From Arthrobacter saudimassiliensis (GTDB taxonomy: Bacteria > Actinomycetota > Actinomycetes > Actinomycetales > Micrococcaceae), in assembly GCA_900016675.1 (NCBI GenBank), contig LN483070.1:1426001-1490000 (forward strand): a stretch of 64,000 nt of DNA, written 5' to 3'. The position numbers were made by a program, and so were the translations under genes. The notes beneath the pieces were generated by a model. The model saw nothing but the letters and a program-made list of their open reading frames with translations, was not told where the DNA came from and ran no database searches. Below, in pieces: positions 26,218 to 33,119 of this stretch. Position 1 is the stretch's first letter. Every line of letters starts with the position of its first letter.

Positions 26218-27171
26218 TCAGGACGCGTAGTCGCTGGCGTTGTACAGGTTCAGCTTCAGCGCCGCCGCCACCTGCGCGACGGCGTGCCGGGCCCGGACGC
26301 TGTTGCCGGCCGGATCCAGCGGAGGCGAGAAGCCCGCTATCGCGAGGACTCCCGGCATGACGGCAAGCACGCCGCCGCCGACGCCGGACTTGCCCGGCAG
26401 CCCCACTTTGTAGGCCCAGTCGCCCGAGGCGGTGTAGAGGCCCTCCATGGTCATCTCCGCAAGCATGGGCGGCACGAAGGACGGATTGCTGATGACCTTC
26501 TTGCCGGTGACCGGATTGGTGCCCCTTGCAGCGATGGTCGCTCCCATGGTGGCAAGGTCCACGGCGGTGACCAGCGTGGAGCACTGGCGGGTGTAGACCT
26601 CGCAGGCCTCCATCGGATCGGAGTACATCGTCCCGGCCGAGTACATCAGCCAGGCGATCGCCCGGTTGTGGAAGTTGGTCGACTGCTCCGAATCATTGAC
26701 TGCGTCGCTCAGGGAGATCTGCCGTCCCGCGAAGTCGCTTTGGGTCTGCAGGATCCTGTGCCACCGTTCCCCGGGTGAGTCCGCCTGGATCAGGGAAACC
26801 GTTGCCATGGCGCCGGCGTTGACCAGCGGCGACTGGGGCTTGCCCTGGTGCAGCGTCAGGGCGACGACCGAGTTGAACGGTTCGCCCGTGGGGTCCGCTC
26901 CGATCTTGTCGTGGAACGCCTGCAAGCCCACGTCCTCCATGCAGCGTGCCATGGAGAACACCTTGGAGATGGATTCCAGCGCGAATTCGAACCGGGTGTC
27001 GCCGGCCTCGTACACATCGCCGTCGACCGTCACCACCGCCACCCCGAACAGCGAGGGATCAACGGAGGCCAGGTACGGGATGTAGCTGGCGTTCGCTCCG
27101 CCGGTGTCGTTCACGTGGTCGGCATGGGCTGTCCGGACGGCGTTCTCGATGTCCTGTCTGGCTGGCATCAT
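26218..27171 (-). CDS. glsA: Glutaminase A
   Basis: This 317-aa serine-dependent beta-lactamase-like glutaminase hydrolyses L-glutamine to glutamate plus ammonia in the cytoplasm. The catalytic Ser67-x-x-Lys70 is in FALESISKVF. Other family segments are TGEPFNSVVALTLHQGKPQSPLVNAGAM (Asn region), NFHNRAIAWLM and GKSGVGGGVLAVMPG. The first ATG overlaps the gadC stop by 4 bp (ATGA), so it is the third gene of the gad operon. In acid resistance, ammonia release by glutaminase consumes protons and supplies glutamate to the decarboxylase; that role is inferred from the operon. Confidence 0.95.
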   Translation of the reverse strand: MMPARQDIENAVRTAHADHVNDTGGANASYIPYLASVDPSLFGVAVVTVDGDVYEAGDTRFEFALESISKVFSMARCMEDVGLQAFHDKIGADPTGEPFNSVVALTLHQGKPQSPLVNAGAMATVSLIQADSPGERWHRILQTQSDFAGRQISLSDAVNDSEQSTNFHNRAIAWLMYSAGTMYSDPMEACEVYTRQCSTLVTAVDLATMGATIAARGTNPVTGKKVISNPSFVPPMLAEMTMEGLYTASGDWAYKVGLPGKSGVGGGVLAVMPGVLAIAGFSPPLDPAGNSVRARHAVAQVAAALKLNLYNASDYAS

Positions 27172-28877
27172 GTCGCTGAGCTCCCTCCTGCCGCCGGGCC
27201 GGGCCGTCGCCTCAGCCGCGGCCGCTGCCGCCCGCCCGGGGCCGCGGGTGTCCGCCCGCCGCTGTCGGCGGTCGACGCCGGTGCGTCGGTGCCGGAGGTG
27301 GCCTTTGGTCCGGTCTCGGTGCGTTCTCCGCTGAGGAACTCATCGGAGAGGGTGCTGGTGGGGACCGAGGAGTCATTCACGGTGCCCGGGTGCTTGCCCT
27401 CCAGCTGCCAGGTGAACGGCACGAACTCGCTGTCCGGGTCCCGCCAGTGCGGCTTGCGGAACGCATAAATCACGAAGGCGAGGGCCACCATGACCGCGGC
27501 GGCGCCGACCAGGATGCCGACGTAGAGTTCCGGGGAACCGACGGCGATCTGGTCCGGCGGTATGAAGCTGAAGGTGAAGGCCATCAGCGAGCCCAGGAAA
27601 CCGACGCCGCCCACGATCCACATGCCGACGTCGCCGCCCGGCACCTTGTAGGGCCGGGGCCGGTTCGGCTGGCTGTACCGGAGGTAGATCGCCGCGGCGA
27701 ACATCAGCAGGTACATGATCAGGTAGAGGATGACGGTCAGCTGGCTGAGGATCTGGTAGGCCGCCTGGACCGAGGGCAGGACGACGTACACCACGCCCAG
27801 CGCGGTCACGAGCAGTGCCTGGAAGAGCAGGATGTGCGTGCCCATGCCGTGCTGGTTGGTGTGCTGCCAGAACCGGGGCAGGTATCCGGCCTTGGCGACG
27901 GCGAGCAGGCCGCTGGACGGACCGGCCACCCAGGTCACCACGCCCGCCAGCACGCCGAGCAGGAGCATCGCGGCGATGATGGGCCCGGCCCAGCCGATGC
28001 CGGCCCACTCGAACATGTCGTTGTAGCTGGTCAGCAGGCTCTGGGTGAGATTGATGTCGGCCTGCGGCACGACGAAGGCGATGGCCAGGGTGCCGAGGAC
28101 GAAGATCACGACCGTTCCGGCAGCGGCTATCAGCACCGCCAGCGGGTAGCTTCGGGTGGGGTTCTTCACGTCCTTCACGTGGATGGCGTTCATTTCCATG
28201 CCCGCGTAGAACAGGAAGATGCTGGCCGCCAGCACCACGTTGGAGAAGTTGGTGAAGTCCGGAATGAGTTCATTCCAGCCGGTCTGGATCTGCAGCCGGT
28301 TTCCGGAGAACAGATAGGCGAAGCCGAGCACGATCAGGATGCCGGCGGGAATCAGGGTACCGACGATGCCGCCCCACTTGGCGACCCGGGAAAAGGCGCC
28401 CGCGCCGCGGAAGGCAATGAACGTGGCCGCCCAGTAGACCACCAGCACCACCGCCAGGACGAAGGCCTTGTTGCCGGAGAGCTGGGCGTCCAGGTTCGCG
28501 TTGGTGCCGGTATAGGCCAGCGAGACGGCGCCGAAGGTCAGGACGGTCGGAAACCAGATGGACACCTCTATGAAGAGCATGAACATCGCGAGGAACGCCC
28601 AGCGTGCGCCGAACGCCTCGCCGACCCATCGGAACACGCCGCCCGTTTCGGGCCATCCCGTGGCCAGCTCCGCCGCGACGATGGACACCGGAATCAGGAA
28701 CACGACGGCGGCCAGGACGTAGTAGAAGATGGAACTCAGCCCGTATTCGGCTTCTGCCGGCAGGCCGCGCAGGGAGACGATGGCGACGATGTTCATCACG
28801 GCGAGCGCGCCGATCGAGATGGTCGCCGTTCGTTTGGCCCGTGCCTGCCGGTCAGTCGATGCAGCGGAATCGCTCAT
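27168..28877 (-). CDS. gadC: Glutamate:GABA antiporter
   Basis: This 569-aa APC-superfamily antiporter should exchange external glutamate (or glutamine) for cytoplasmic GABA. ATG at 28877 is chosen because GGAGG lies 8 nt upstream; an in-frame GTG at 28886 would sit directly on that site. About 12 hydrophobic helices are seen, including the GadC-like SLRGLPAEAEYGLSSIFYY after helix 1, ELATGWPETGGVFRWVGEAFG, and FYAGMEMNAIHVKDVKNP. A hydrophilic C-terminal tail of about 100 residues follows; in E. coli GadC such a tail acts as a pH-sensitive plug, though this one is a different Pro/Arg/Ser-rich sequence. It begins 18 bp after gadB and overlaps glsA by 4 bp. Confidence 0.93.
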   Translation of the reverse strand: MSDSAASTDRQARAKRTATISIGALAVMNIVAIVSLRGLPAEAEYGLSSIFYYVLAAVVFLIPVSIVAAELATGWPETGGVFRWVGEAFGARWAFLAMFMLFIEVSIWFPTVLTFGAVSLAYTGTNANLDAQLSGNKAFVLAVVLVVYWAATFIAFRGAGAFSRVAKWGGIVGTLIPAGILIVLGFAYLFSGNRLQIQTGWNELIPDFTNFSNVVLAASIFLFYAGMEMNAIHVKDVKNPTRSYPLAVLIAAAGTVVIFVLGTLAIAFVVPQADINLTQSLLTSYNDMFEWAGIGWAGPIIAAMLLLGVLAGVVTWVAGPSSGLLAVAKAGYLPRFWQHTNQHGMGTHILLFQALLVTALGVVYVVLPSVQAAYQILSQLTVILYLIMYLLMFAAAIYLRYSQPNRPRPYKVPGGDVGMWIVGGVGFLGSLMAFTFSFIPPDQIAVGSPELYVGILVGAAAVMVALAFVIYAFRKPHWRDPDSEFVPFTWQLEGKHPGTVNDSSVPTSTLSDEFLSGERTETGPKATSGTDAPASTADSGGRTPAAPGGRQRPRLRRRPGPAAGGSSAT

Positions 28878-28895
28878 TCCACTCACCTCCAGGGT

Positions 28896-30293
28896 TTAGT
28901 GGTGGAAGCCGGGGTGGGCCGCTTCCGTGGGCATGGGCGCCGAGAGGTTCTCCAGGTATTCGGTTTCGGTGCGGATGTCCTCCAGCAGGCTCGAGGCCAG
29001 GTCCATGCTGAGTCCGTTGCGCACCACGATCCGCTCGACCGTGAGGTTGGAGAGGTCATCCGGCATCGGATAGGCGGGCACGAGCCAGCCCTTTGAACGC
29101 AGGCGCTCGGCCAGGTCGTAGAGCGTCCATTTGTCCGTGTGGCCCTGCTTCAGCCGCCAGGCGAAGACGGGAATGTCGGAGCCGTCGTTCCACAGTTCGA
29201 AGGGACCGATCTCCGCGATTCCGTGCGAGAGGAACAGCGCCACGTCCTGCGAGGCCTGCTGCACCTGGCGGTAGCCGTCACGGCCCAGCCGCAGGAACAG
29301 GTAGAACTGCAGCACCACCTGGGCGCCGGGCCGGGAGAAATTCAGGGCGAAGGTCGGCATGTCGCCGCCGAGGTAGCTGACGTAGAAGATCAGGTCCTCG
29401 GGCAGCCACTGCCGCTCCCGCCAGACCACCCAGCCGAGGCCCGGATAGACCAGCCCGTACTTATGGCCGGAGGTGCTGATCGAGTGCACCCGCTCGAGCT
29501 GGAAATCCCAGGTGAGGTCCGGCTGCAGGAACGGCGCGATCATTCCGCCGGAGGCTCCATCCACGTGGATGGGAATGTCCAGCCCGGTCGAGGCCTGGAT
29601 CTCGTCGAGCTTCGCGGCGATCTGCTGCACGGGCTCATACATGCCGGTATAGGTCACGCCCATGATCGCGACGACGCCGATCGTGTTCTCGTCGACGTAG
29701 TTCTCCAGCCCGTGCCCGTCGAGGCACTTGTGCTCCTCGGTGATGGGCACCAGCCGGGGCTCGATGTCGAAGTAGTTGCAGAACTTCTCCCAGCACACCT
29801 GCACCGCCGAACTCATGACGAGGTTCGGTTTCTCGGTGGACTTCCCCTCGGAACGGCGCTTGTGCTGCCAGAGCCGCTTGAAGGCCAGGCCGCCCAGCAT
29901 GCAGGCCTCGGAGGAGCCGACCGTCGAGGTGCCGATCGTGCCCTGCGGATCCGGGGAGTGCCAGAGATCGGCGAGGATCTTCCAGCAGTACTGCTCAATG
30001 GCAGCGGTCTGCGGGTACTCGTCCTTGTCGATCATGTTCTTGTCGTAGGTTTCGGAGTACAGCCGGTCGGCGTGGTCGTCCATCCAGGTGCTGACGAACG
30101 TGGCGAGGTTCAGCCGGGCGTTGCCGTCCAGCATGGTCTCGTCATGGACGATCTGATAGGCGGTTTCGGGCAGCATCTGCCCGTCCCGCAGTGAGAACTT
30201 CGGTGCGACGGTTTCCTCGCCCGGACGGGCGAAGATGGGGTTGACGGTGAGGAATTCCCTCTGTCCGTTCTGGGATTCTCCGGCTTGCGGCAT
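28896..30293 (-). CDS. gadB: Glutamate decarboxylase
   Basis: This 465-aa PLP enzyme converts glutamate to GABA with proton consumption; the length matches E. coli GadB (466). The start MPQAGESQ has GGAGG 9 nt upstream. Motifs are GTSTVGSSEACMLGGLA (120-136, substrate/PLP phosphate region), HVDGASGGMIAPF (243-255, PLP ring Asp) and the Schiff-base K278 in SISTSGHKYGL. The protein ends in two His residues; a C-terminal His closes the active site at neutral pH in E. coli GadB. First gene of gadB-gadC-glsA. A minus-strand TATAGT about 95 bp upstream is a possible -10. Confidence 0.95.
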   Translation of the reverse strand: MPQAGESQNGQREFLTVNPIFARPGEETVAPKFSLRDGQMLPETAYQIVHDETMLDGNARLNLATFVSTWMDDHADRLYSETYDKNMIDKDEYPQTAAIEQYCWKILADLWHSPDPQGTIGTSTVGSSEACMLGGLAFKRLWQHKRRSEGKSTEKPNLVMSSAVQVCWEKFCNYFDIEPRLVPITEEHKCLDGHGLENYVDENTIGVVAIMGVTYTGMYEPVQQIAAKLDEIQASTGLDIPIHVDGASGGMIAPFLQPDLTWDFQLERVHSISTSGHKYGLVYPGLGWVVWRERQWLPEDLIFYVSYLGGDMPTFALNFSRPGAQVVLQFYLFLRLGRDGYRQVQQASQDVALFLSHGIAEIGPFELWNDGSDIPVFAWRLKQGHTDKWTLYDLAERLRSKGWLVPAYPMPDDLSNLTVERIVVRNGLSMDLASSLLEDIRTETEYLENLSAPMPTEAAHPGFHH

Positions 30294-30616
30294 GGTCTTT
30301 GACCTCCAGTTCAGTGTCCCCAACTGACACCTCGCCGCGGTGCGCGGCGGCGGTCCTAGATTCCCCAAGGGCAGCGCGCAGTGCCGACTATACGCGCGGC
30401 TGAAAGGCCAATACCAGACAACGCAGCGGTTCCGGCGGCGGGTGCCGCGAGACGGTACGGGACCTGCCGGCCCGGCCCCGGGAACCTGCCGGGGAGGCGG
30501 GCGCCGACCGTGCCGGACCCGTTGAGGTCCGCCCGCGGGCGGGCGTAGCCTGAACGGCAATACCGGCTCAGGCCCCGCCGCAGCAGGGGCTGCTTCAGCT
30601 TCTCCAGGAGGAACTC
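30294..30616. other. Divergent intergenic region, 323 bp
   Basis: This is the control region between the gad operon and hsp20. It has GTGTC-N7-GACAC (30316-30332) just before the gadB ribosome site, a minus-strand -10 candidate TATAGT (30392-30387), and a small GC-rich stem around 30335-30350. The right half is GC rich with no clear signal other than the hsp20 ribosome site. No gene is supported. Confidence 0.45.
30387..30392 (-). promoter_or_regulatory. Candidate -10 of the gad operon
   Basis: TATAGT on the minus strand is close to the consensus. The -35 region is weak (GGTATT at 17 bp), which would suit an activated or alternative-sigma promoter. The transcript would have about 90 nt of leader. 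Confidence 0.4.
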
Positions 30617-31030
30617 ATGGCTGGACTTTCACGGCGCGACCGATTCGAGCTTCCGGAGCCCGTGCGGCGCTTCTTCGAGGGGGACTGGGACGTCGCTTCC
30701 GGCTTTCCCATCGAGGAGTACCGGGACGGGCAGGCGCTCGTTGTCCGGGCCGACCTGCCGGACATTGATCCGGAAACGGACCTGGACGTCACCGTGGCGG
30801 ACGGCATGCTGCGCATCCATGCCGAGCGCCGGGAGGAGAGCAGCCGCCGGGGCAGGGAGGGCTACCGGTCCGAATTCCGGTATGGCTCCATGACCCGCGA
30901 GATCCGGCTGCCGCAGGGCGCGTCCGCGGACGACGTCGCCGCCTCCTACCGCGACGGTGTCCTCGAGGTGCGGGTACCGCTGCCCCCGACCGGGGACACC
31001 GGGCGGAAGGTGCCGATCACCAGGACCTGA
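30617..31030 (+). CDS. Hsp20/alpha-crystallin family small heat-shock protein
   Basis: This 137-aa small heat-shock protein is predicted to be an ATP-independent holdase in the cytoplasm. AGGAGGAAC precedes the ATG. The alpha-crystallin domain spans about 35-125: YRDGQALVVRADLPDIDPET (strand 2-3), ERREES, and the near-C-terminal GVLEVRVPLPP, which carries the G-V-L motif. The short C-terminal tail PITRT resembles the I-x-I/V oligomerisation motif only weakly. It is divergent from the gad operon and precedes an MFS gene by 22 bp, so the two may be co-transcribed. No HspR or CIRCE operator was seen. Confidence 0.92.
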   Translation: MAGLSRRDRFELPEPVRRFFEGDWDVASGFPIEEYRDGQALVVRADLPDIDPETDLDVTVADGMLRIHAERREESSRRGREGYRSEFRYGSMTREIRLPQGASADDVAASYRDGVLEVRVPLPPTGDTGRKVPITRT

Positions 31031-31052: not shown

Positions 31053-33119
31053 ATGACGCAGGGCACCGGGCCCCGGAGCGCCCGAGGCGGCGGCCCGCCG
31101 TCGGGCGCCGGCCGGGACGGCGGAACGGACCGGTCGGGCCCTCCCGGGCGCGGAGCCGGCAGTCCCGCCTGGCTGGTGACGGCGGTCCTCGCCTGCGGCG
31201 GCATCGTGGTGTCGCTGGAGAAGACCGCCGTGGTCCCGCTGCTGCCGGAGTACCCGCGGGTCTTCGGCGTCAGCAGCGACGACGTGTCCTGGCTGGTGAC
31301 GGTGACGCTGCTCAGTGCCGCGGTGGCCACGCCGATTGTGTCCAGGCTCGCCGACATGTTCGGCAAGAAGCGCATGCTGCTCATCAGCATGGTGGCCATG
31401 GTGGCCGGGGGATATGCCGCCGCGATCGGGCACTCCTTTGAATGGGTGCTGGCCGGGCGGACCCTGCAGGGCTTCGCCGGAGCGGTGATCCCGGTCGGGA
31501 TCAGCATCCTGCGCGATGCCCTCCCACAGCGCCGCATCGCCGCCGCGGTGTCCCTGATGAGCGCCAGCTTCGGCATCGGCAGCGCCCTGGGGCTGCCGAT
31601 GGCCGGGCTGATCTATGAGCGGCTGGGCTGGGAGGCCACGTTCTGGGTGGTGGCGACCATCGCCGCGGTGCTGGTCGCGGCGGTCTTTTTCTGCGTGCCG
31701 GAGTCACGGGTCCGCACGCCGGGACGGTTTGACTGGACCGGAGCCGTCCTGCTGTCAGCCGCCATGACGGCCCTGCTGCTGGCCATCACGAAGGGCGGGG
31801 TCTGGGGATGGGGGAGCGGGCCGATCCTCGGGCTGTTCACCGCGGCGGCCGTCCTGCTGGCGCTGTGGTTTCCGCTGGAGCTGCGGATCGGCGAGCCCCT
31901 GGTGGATCTGCGGACCTCGGCCCGGCGGCCCGTGCTGCTCACCAATGCCGCCACGATCCTCGTCGGATTCTCCATGTACGCGAACATGCTGGTGACCACC
32001 CAGCAGCTGCAGCTGTCGCCGGAGACCGGGTACGGGTTCGGGCTGAGCGTGCTGGCGGCGGGGCTGACCATGATCCCCTCGGGCCTGGCGATGGTCGCCG
32101 CCGCTCCGCTGTCGGCACGGATCACCAACCGGCACGGGGCGCGCCTGACGCTGGTGGTGGGCTGCGCGGTCATGGCCGCGGGGTATCTCTCCAGGGTGGT
32201 GCTGCTGCACTCCGTGCCCGGCATCATCACCGGCGCCGTCGTGGTCTCCGTCGGCACGGCGATCGCCATGTCCGCCATGCCGACGCTGATCATGTCCAAC
32301 GTGCCGCTGACCGATACGGCAGCCGCCAACGGCGTGAACACGCTGCTGCGCTCGGTCGGCACCTCCACCTGCAGCGCCACCGTCGCCACCGTGCTGGCAG
32401 CCCTGACGGTACGCATCGACGGCGCCGTCTTCCCCGGCGTCGACGCCTTCCGGCTGATCTTCCTTCTGGCCGGGGCGGCGGCGCTGGCGGCCACCGGAAT
32501 CTCCTGCCTGGTGCCCGGGCCGGCGCGCCGCGAGGCAACCCATCCGGCCCTGCATGCAGCTCCCGGCGCCGAACCGCCGGCCGCCAAGCGGGAGGTCATG
32601 GTCACCGGGGTCCTGCGCGCATCCGATGGAACCTCCGTGTCCGGCGGCACCGTCTCCGTCCTGTCCATGGACGGCACGCAGGTGGACTGGGACCGCGCCG
32701 ACGACGGCGGACGGTATGCCGTCGTCCTGCCGGGGGAGGGGCGCTACCTGTTCGTGGCCGGCCAGCACGGCTGGCGGCCCGTGTCCGAGGTCGTCACCGT
32801 TCCCGGCAGCGATACGGAACGGGACATCCGTTTCCAGCAGCGGCTGATGCTCAGCGGAACGGTGGCCCACGCCGGCCGGCCGCTGGCGGACTGCCTGGTG
32901 GTGCTCGGCCGTCCCACCGAGGCCGTCACCGCCTCGGCCCGCTCCGACCGGGAGGGCCGCTACGAACTGCCGCTGCCGCGTCCCGGGACCTACATCCTCG
33001 CGGTGGTGGAGCCGGACGGGGCGACCACGCACACCAGGCGGGTGGTGTTGCCCACATCCGATCCCGTGATCGACGTGGAGTTCGCAGCCGAAACCCCGGA
33101 GACCGGGCTGCAGATCTAG
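31053..33119 (+). CDS. MFS (DHA2-type) exporter with C-terminal carboxypeptidase-regulatory-like repeats
   Basis: This 688-aa protein starts at ATG 31053 (CGGGAGG upstream). Residues about 40-490 form a 14-helix DHA2 drug:H+ antiporter: VVSLEKTAVVPLLPEY in helix 1, SRLADMFGKKRMLL, and the motif-C-like FGIGSALGLPMAG in helix 5. Residues about 510-680 are a hydrophilic extension made of two beta-sandwich units, each opening with a V-x-G/L-S-G-x-V segment and containing D-x-x-G-R-Y (DDGGRYAVVLPGEGRYLFVAG; DREGRYELPLPRPGTYILAV). These resemble carboxypeptidase-regulatory-like/CnaB folds. With 14 helices and a cytoplasmic N-terminus the domains would be cytoplasmic. Most DHA2 exporters end after helix 14, at about 480-530 aa. 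Substrate unknown. Confidence 0.88.
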   Translation: MTQGTGPRSARGGGPPSGAGRDGGTDRSGPPGRGAGSPAWLVTAVLACGGIVVSLEKTAVVPLLPEYPRVFGVSSDDVSWLVTVTLLSAAVATPIVSRLADMFGKKRMLLISMVAMVAGGYAAAIGHSFEWVLAGRTLQGFAGAVIPVGISILRDALPQRRIAAAVSLMSASFGIGSALGLPMAGLIYERLGWEATFWVVATIAAVLVAAVFFCVPESRVRTPGRFDWTGAVLLSAAMTALLLAITKGGVWGWGSGPILGLFTAAAVLLALWFPLELRIGEPLVDLRTSARRPVLLTNAATILVGFSMYANMLVTTQQLQLSPETGYGFGLSVLAAGLTMIPSGLAMVAAAPLSARITNRHGARLTLVVGCAVMAAGYLSRVVLLHSVPGIITGAVVVSVGTAIAMSAMPTLIMSNVPLTDTAAANGVNTLLRSVGTSTCSATVATVLAALTVRIDGAVFPGVDAFRLIFLLAGAAALAATGISCLVPGPARREATHPALHAAPGAEPPAAKREVMVTGVLRASDGTSVSGGTVSVLSMDGTQVDWDRADDGGRYAVVLPGEGRYLFVAGQHGWRPVSEVVTVPGSDTERDIRFQQRLMLSGTVAHAGRPLADCLVVLGRPTEAVTASARSDREGRYELPLPRPGTYILAVVEPDGATTHTRRVVLPTSDPVIDVEFAAETPETGLQI

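Follow-up and report, generated by a model that had tools for sequence, protein, structure and literature searches.

The window, a stretch of 64,000 nucleotides from Arthrobacter saudimassiliensis, contains a gene for a putative exporter of the major facilitator superfamily (MFS) with a long C-terminal extension. The features of the locus are the following.

30617–31030, plus strand: hsp20-like gene, 22 bp upstream of the exporter gene (sequence; gene order kept in all 15 named loci of the genus)
31053–33119, plus strand: putative exporter gene, 688 amino acids plus stop (open frame; full-length matches in the genus)
31167–32507, plus strand: 14-helix MFS domain, residues 39–485 (MFS_1 at 46–437; AlphaFold2 model md21769b90098)
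32406–32435, plus strand: predicted short beta-hairpin between TM13 and TM14, residues 452–461, on the outer side by helix count (AlphaFold2)
32508–32591, plus strand: linker, residues 486–513, partly of low confidence and variable outside the genus (AlphaFold2, alignment)
32592–32843, plus strand: beta-sandwich D1, residues 514–597 (Pfam, AlphaFold2, fold comparison)
32685–32690, plus strand: Asp545-Trp546 in D1, invariant in 45 of 45 rows of alignment A1 and in 42 of 42 tailed rows of alignment A2
32844–33086, plus strand: beta-sandwich D2, residues 598–678 (Pfam, AlphaFold2, fold comparison)

The exporter frame is free of internal stops, and Pfam recognizes in its product the MFS_1 domain (E 2.7e-55) and two stretches of CarboxypepD_reg (PF13620, E 1.6e-15). 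The CarboxypepD_reg score of the whole protein, 57.6 bits, lies above the gathering cut-off of 32.3; taken singly, D2 scores 36.4 bits and D1 31.4 bits, D1 alone being slightly below the cut-off. The repeat motifs described in the initial annotation are present as TGVL and DDGGRY in D1 and as SGTV and DREGRY in D2. That annotation had proposed a fusion of a transporter to beta-sandwich domains and had named a frameshift joining two separate genes as the alternative. Matches reaching residue 687 or 688 were found in 27 of the 28 other genomes of the genus; in the remaining one (G023) there is no match to the exporter at E 1e-60. Among 74 homologues scored in a scan of named genomes, 44 carry a tail of at least 116 residues and 30 do not. 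The scan fetched 77 loci, three of which were omitted: L106 gave no match at the threshold, and L094 and L105 were short or cut. L074 was counted as short though the end of the contig cuts the gene. The stop-free frame, the full-length matches and the tailed homologues rule out a frameshift or a split gene and show that the fusion is genuine. Tailed members are found in Arthrobacter, Paenarthrobacter, Psychromicrobium, Specibacter, Nocardioides, Knoellia, Nocardia, Dactylosporangium, Phytohabitans and Georgenia, among others.

The hsp20 frame ends at 31030 and the exporter begins at 31053, which agrees with the spacing noted before; the two genes are likely to be co-transcribed. The genes gadC and gadB of a glutamate decarboxylase system (27168–30560, minus strand) diverge from this pair, and the order gadC–gadB–hsp20–exporter is kept in all 15 named loci of the genus. 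No hsp20 gene was detected near the exporter in loci L045–L106 at E 1e-8, and hsp20 is therefore unsupported as a family-wide partner outside the genus. A single hsp20-like frame lies about 0.8 kb upstream in L152, which has another genus code (E 5.6e-9). The linkage to hsp20 looks genus-specific. The 15 named loci of the genus gave no match to MarR or TetR genes, and no YceI, START-like or TetR neighbour of the window gene was found in the stretch compared.

The conservation of the transporter was read from alignment A2, which comprises 65 of 75 sequences, near-copies and some short ones having been removed by hand. A full-length AlphaFold2 model built on an alignment of 65 sequences (pLDDT 88.6, pTM 0.85) predicts 14 long helices in the span of residues 39–485. 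This is the number claimed in the initial annotation and the number expected of the DHA2 family (14-TMS drug:H+ antiporters). The DHA2 label itself holds only in part. The score against TIGR00711 is 148.5 bits, below the curated cut-off of 230.2. Motif E in TM7, D-x2-G-x2-L, is retained, with D227 nearly invariant, G230 invariant and L233 in the window protein, and so is the arginine of TM4 (R136 in 65 of 65). The antiporter motif C in TM5 lacks its Gly-Pro and reads Gly180-Leu181-Pro182, with each residue conserved at 90% or more; the motif was read in 17 of the 65 rows. Motif D1 (L d X t, with Asp in TM1), as defined in PMC10604125, is missing its aspartate: column 56 contains Gln in 32, Glu in 14, Met in 9, Leu in 6 and Thr in 4 of the 65 rows, and Asp in none. 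The role of acidic residues in DHA2 transporters is treated in PMC10425836; in the present family the only mostly acidic column within the helices is 66, close to the outer end of TM1 (49 of 65). The TM13 arginine is invariant, and the TM7 lysine is present in 54 of 65 homologues. Judged by its sequence, the transporter appears DHA2-like but atypical. Because the family lacks motifs that proton-coupled DHA2 pumps possess, drug:proton antiport, its direction and its coupling are uncertain.

The solved transporters nearest to the family profile are EfpA (177 bits), EmrB (153 bits), the antiseptic resistance protein 7y58 (143 bits), which we take to be QacA, and the drug transporter 7d5q (127 bits), presumably NorC. 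The DHA2 drug:H+ antiporters EmrB, QacA and NorC share with the window protein the 14-helix MFS architecture, the TM4 arginine and the motif E aspartate. They differ from the window family in possessing the motif D1 aspartate and the motif C Gly-Pro. Extracellular loop EL7 of QacA is described as a helical hairpin (PMC10425836), whereas a short beta-hairpin is predicted for the window protein. EfpA of Mycobacterium tuberculosis, a proposed lipid transporter (PMC10802681), also has 14 helices and is the top-scoring solved relative, the resemblance being a profile match. Unlike the window family, it has Asp at the aligned TM1 position of motif D1, and past the aligned helices no sandwich tail is present in its 569-residue chain or in the shorter chains. 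Orthology with EfpA was dropped, as EfpA also leads the list for a distant branch and carries the TM1 aspartate.

Structure prediction of the tail, which had been suggested as a check, gave the expected fold. The AlphaFold2 model of the tail alone (m555ec1c262fc, 45 sequences, pLDDT 89.3, pTM 0.73) contains two beta sandwiches. D1 corresponds to the transthyretin-like domains of carboxypeptidases N and D (2nsm, 5aq0, 1qmu) with VIA Z of 12.1–12.3 and rmsd of 1.7–1.8 over 78–79 residues, which identifies it as a predicted transthyretin-like sandwich; a domain of SleC matches D1 with an equally high score. For D2 the matches are UafA, transthyretin and related proteins (Z of about 9–11). The top Foldseek match is SdrD. 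Surface or secreted proteins are numerous among the highest-ranking fold matches, and the fold is frequent in pilins and adhesin stalks. Besides the Asp-Trp pair, which has no counterpart in D2, D1 contains a conserved Trp574 (41 of 42 tailed rows) and Pro576 (42 of 42). Pairwise dN/dS values for eight close pairs are 0–0.23 for D1, 0.09–0.25 for D2 and 0.02–0.13 for the helices. By these estimates the tail is a maintained part of the protein, under purifying selection. It evolves faster than the helices, with an identity within the genus of 0.54–0.57 against 0.78. The linker contains the sequence EATHP shortly after TM14 in the window and in 15 of 15 named loci of the genus, and in none of the other tailed loci listed. 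In the Asanoa homologue (L083, 4944–6737) the tail is shortened to D1 and only the beginning of D2.

A survey of MFS proteins with the same extension, likewise proposed earlier, was carried out with a tail profile built from the close group, eight candidates per genome being scored. At E of 1e-8 or lower, at least 75 of the 394 genomes of the class contain a match, a figure that is a lower bound. Thirteen of these score at 6.1e-40 or lower, and the next at 4.3e-27. Among the other 62, 33 share the family code f37, which we infer to be Streptomyces-like, and the frames are mostly of 750–1000 amino acids. Down the score list, 54 distant loci (L137–L150 and L157–L196) were chosen; they are not independent, as 40 of the 54 belong to f37 and some genomes occur twice, and they include L144, L145 and L196 although the MFS domains of these three resemble that of the window closely. 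Exporter and tail are encoded in one frame in 51 of the 54 loci, the exceptions being L180, L187 and L188. The number of repeats is one to three and differs between branches. L138 contains MFS_1 and three CarboxypepD_reg stretches and scores 231.7 bits against TIGR00711, just above the cut-off; L142 has the same domains and scores 226.1 bits, L143 scores 228.7 bits, and L144, with a single CarboxypepD_reg stretch, 127.6 bits. L144 (4338–6182) and L145 (2667–4484) belong to another family, have MFS domains close to that of the window and a single CarboxypepD_reg, and the Asp-Trp pair is kept in L144. Asp-Trp occurs in only two of the 51 tails, and in a matching context only in L144. This speaks against one Asp-Trp site common to all tails and implies that the partner or ligand of the window branch is probably its own.

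A quick tree of 104 MFS domains (52 tailed) requires at least 12 changes of the tail label, at least nine of them forced by starred branches; the mean for shuffled labels is 34.9 changes. Its rows were chosen by hand with tailed rows over-represented, L194 was dropped as too short, the stars are less safe for long rows, and long branches join (L143 with L009). These label changes cannot separate gain from loss. The simplest reading of the tree is repeated acquisition of the tail across exporter branches, losses also being possible. MFS and CarboxypepD_reg are each known already; new here are the recurrence of the tails across exporter branches and, as described below, the neighbouring genes and the link to a studied operon. 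No paper on an MFS/CarboxypepD_reg fusion was found in the open-licence literature, judged from search listings. Five plasmid records cover most of the query; it is annotated as an MFS transporter in three of them and is without annotation there in two.

The sister branches differ from Arthrobacter in the genes beside the exporter. A YceI gene adjoins the exporter in 17 of the 54 loci (Pfam on two examples), and a START-like (Polyketide_cyc2) gene lies beside it in 26 (Pfam on four examples). The START-like loci include L140, L141, L146–L148 and L157–L168, and their exporter group differs from the YceI-linked one. Both kinds of exporter come from remote branches of the MFS, and no Asp-Trp pair is present in their tails. 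In 16 of the 17 YceI loci a MarR gene is present, upstream of the exporter in 13 (L138, L139, L169, L173, L174, L177, L178, L181–L184, L186 and L190) and beyond YceI in three (L192, L193 and L195). All the YceI proteins read, that is all except the L192 fragment, carry a CarboxypepD_reg-like domain at the N-terminus (16 of 16, E 2.5e-11 to 4.3e-7 in a search of 16 sequences; in Pfam, L138 just reaches the cut-off and L139 falls slightly short of it). No hydrophobic stretch resembling a signal peptide is evident in any of the 16 by hydropathy at script-chosen starts. In the window genome, the tail profile matches the exporter itself and no second protein, four weak PF13620 matches elsewhere are all below the cut-off, and one YceI gene occurs, in a 196-residue frame. 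No tail-bearing YceI partner was found in this genome.

The association of these neighbours with the tail was compared with tailless homologues. Within a 1.5-kb flank, neither YceI nor START-like genes were found in 34 tailless rows, compared with YceI in three of five tailed rows from that set; this control is weak, as the tailed rows form one clade and L003 equals L219, so that the 34 rows represent 33 genes. A START-like gene is present about 1.7–2 kb upstream in six of 33 close tailless loci (L078, L079, L081, L082, L101 and L104). Of 35 tailed loci outside the genus, 24 have a TetR gene immediately downstream, as do three of 33 tailless ones (Pfam on examples). Since START-like and TetR genes also occur near tailless homologues, neither kind of neighbour is exclusive to tailed exporters. 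YceI relatives with solved structures include polyisoprenoid-binding proteins, and BcnA, a secreted YceI lipocalin, binds hydrophobic antibiotics (PMC5350466). BcnA belongs to the same family as the soluble neighbour in the sister branch; it is released outside the cell, and the window exporter has no YceI neighbour.

One of the distant groups can be connected with a studied operon. In Streptomyces avermitilis, the MarR regulator SAV4189 (171 amino acids) is encoded 22 nt before the efflux gene sav_4190, and SAV4190, like SCO4031 of S. coelicolor, is an MFS efflux protein under such control (PMC6036246). The deletion of sav_4190 described there spanned +104 to +2446 (PMC6036246), which suggests that the gene is at least about 2.4 kb long. 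The SAV4189 operator consensus is given in the same source as TTGCCYKHRSCAA. According to that paper, transcription of sav_4190 rises about 75-fold with hygromycin B and about 71-fold with thiostrepton, and avermectin yield rose when sav_4190 was deleted; its authors argue against avermectin as the substrate. The main text of PMC6036246 does not contain the word YceI. We searched the 54 distant loci for the operator, those without it serving as control. It occurs near the MarR gene, in one to three copies, in 12 loci. These are 12 of the 13 loci with MarR upstream and YceI; it is absent from all three loci with MarR beyond YceI and from the other 38 (0 of 41 outside the 13-locus group). One group of tailed exporters is thus very probably the SAV4190 group: twelve loci agree with that operon in the MarR gene, the operator and the size of the exporter, and they encode a CarboxypepD_reg-tailed exporter. 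They differ from the window in belonging to a distant MFS branch and in having three repeats where read, YceI beside the exporter and MarR control. In the window the upstream gene is hsp20, so that the MarR gene beside the exporter of a SAV4190-type operon is not found.

The side of the membrane on which the tail lies can be predicted with high confidence. Averaged across 65 homologues, lysines plus arginines number 2.0–4.0 in five of the six inner loops and 0.0–0.8 in the seven outer loops, with 4.4 at the N-terminus and 2.3 in the stretch following TM14. Inner loop 12–13 is the exception with 0.7. Taken with the 14 helices, this charge pattern places both ends inside and would make the tail cytoplasmic, as the initial annotation expected. 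The inverted topology that it raised as another option, with the tail outside the cell, would suit the many surface and secreted proteins among the top fold matches and the low charge of loop 12–13. It is nevertheless extremely improbable and was dropped, because the charges of the other loops and of the termini, the helix count and the related domain on YceI proteins without an evident signal peptide all stand against it.

We propose that the window protein is a 14-helix DHA2-like MFS exporter carrying two transthyretin-like domains on a flexible cytoplasmic linker. Its role would be to expel a small, perhaps hydrophobic, molecule. The tail would act as a cytoplasmic docking or regulatory module that meets a soluble partner or the substrate prior to transport. 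As a whole, this is our best explanation, held with slightly less than even confidence. An export role by itself is probable in view of the TetR genes downstream of tailed exporters, the SAV4189 operator with antibiotic induction, and the nearest solved transporters. Hygromycin B is hydrophilic, and the inducers therefore do not indicate a hydrophobic substrate. The docking or regulatory role is suggested by analogy with sister branches, in which tailed exporters adjoin YceI or START-like proteins of hydrophobic-ligand-binding families and YceI shares the tail domain. As those exporters are distant and their tails lack Asp-Trp, the function may not carry over to the window gene, and docking is conceivable though somewhat doubtful.

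Sensing of the substrate and binding of a partner, both named as possible roles of the tail at the outset, are live options. A tail that gates transport allosterically on sensing the substrate or some other ligand in the cytoplasm, with no protein partner, would fit the linker of low model confidence, the invariant Asp-Trp with the near-invariant Trp574-x-Pro576, and the purifying selection; this reading seems unlikely, as the searches made found no ligand of such a tail and the fold matches reveal no function. The tail might instead be a self-association or folding module that holds subunits together or stabilises the protein, without ligand or partner. The frequency of the fold in pilins and adhesin stalks, a repeat number that differs by branch and the lack of a second tail-profile match in the window genome would agree with such a module. 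It is somewhat unlikely, for an Asp-Trp pair invariant in D1 and absent from D2 points to a specific site, and a soluble protein of the sister branch carries the same domain. On the docking reading, CarboxypepD_reg tails could mark a capture-and-hand-off mode of export in actinobacteria: a cytoplasmic YceI or START-like protein would pick up a drug or lipid and deliver it to the exporter by pairing with its sandwiches, and the Arthrobacter branch would have retained the receptor half, its Asp-Trp site being read by another partner encoded elsewhere. This wider scheme is speculative and distinctly unlikely.

Sandwiches of this type are mostly known from surface or secreted proteins; here they are very probably on the cytoplasmic side of several MFS exporter branches. 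The exporter genes of one branch have beside them a gene for a soluble YceI protein that bears the same domain and shows no obvious signal peptide. Should the tail serve for docking, single-component MFS pumps would turn out to have capture partners in the cytoplasm. This idea is open to genetics in the SAV4189-type operon, which has already been studied with regard to antibiotic induction and avermectin yield. A carboxypeptidase-D-regulatory-like domain is also attached to a transporter in SusC, as its N-terminal extension (PF13715), and the best DALI match of that extension is 5aq0 (PMC7782687), a structure also among the matches of D1. SusC differs from the window protein in being an outer-membrane importer and in the N-terminal position and the Pfam family of the domain (PMC7782687). 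Deletion of the SusC extension strongly impairs growth on levan (PMC7782687).
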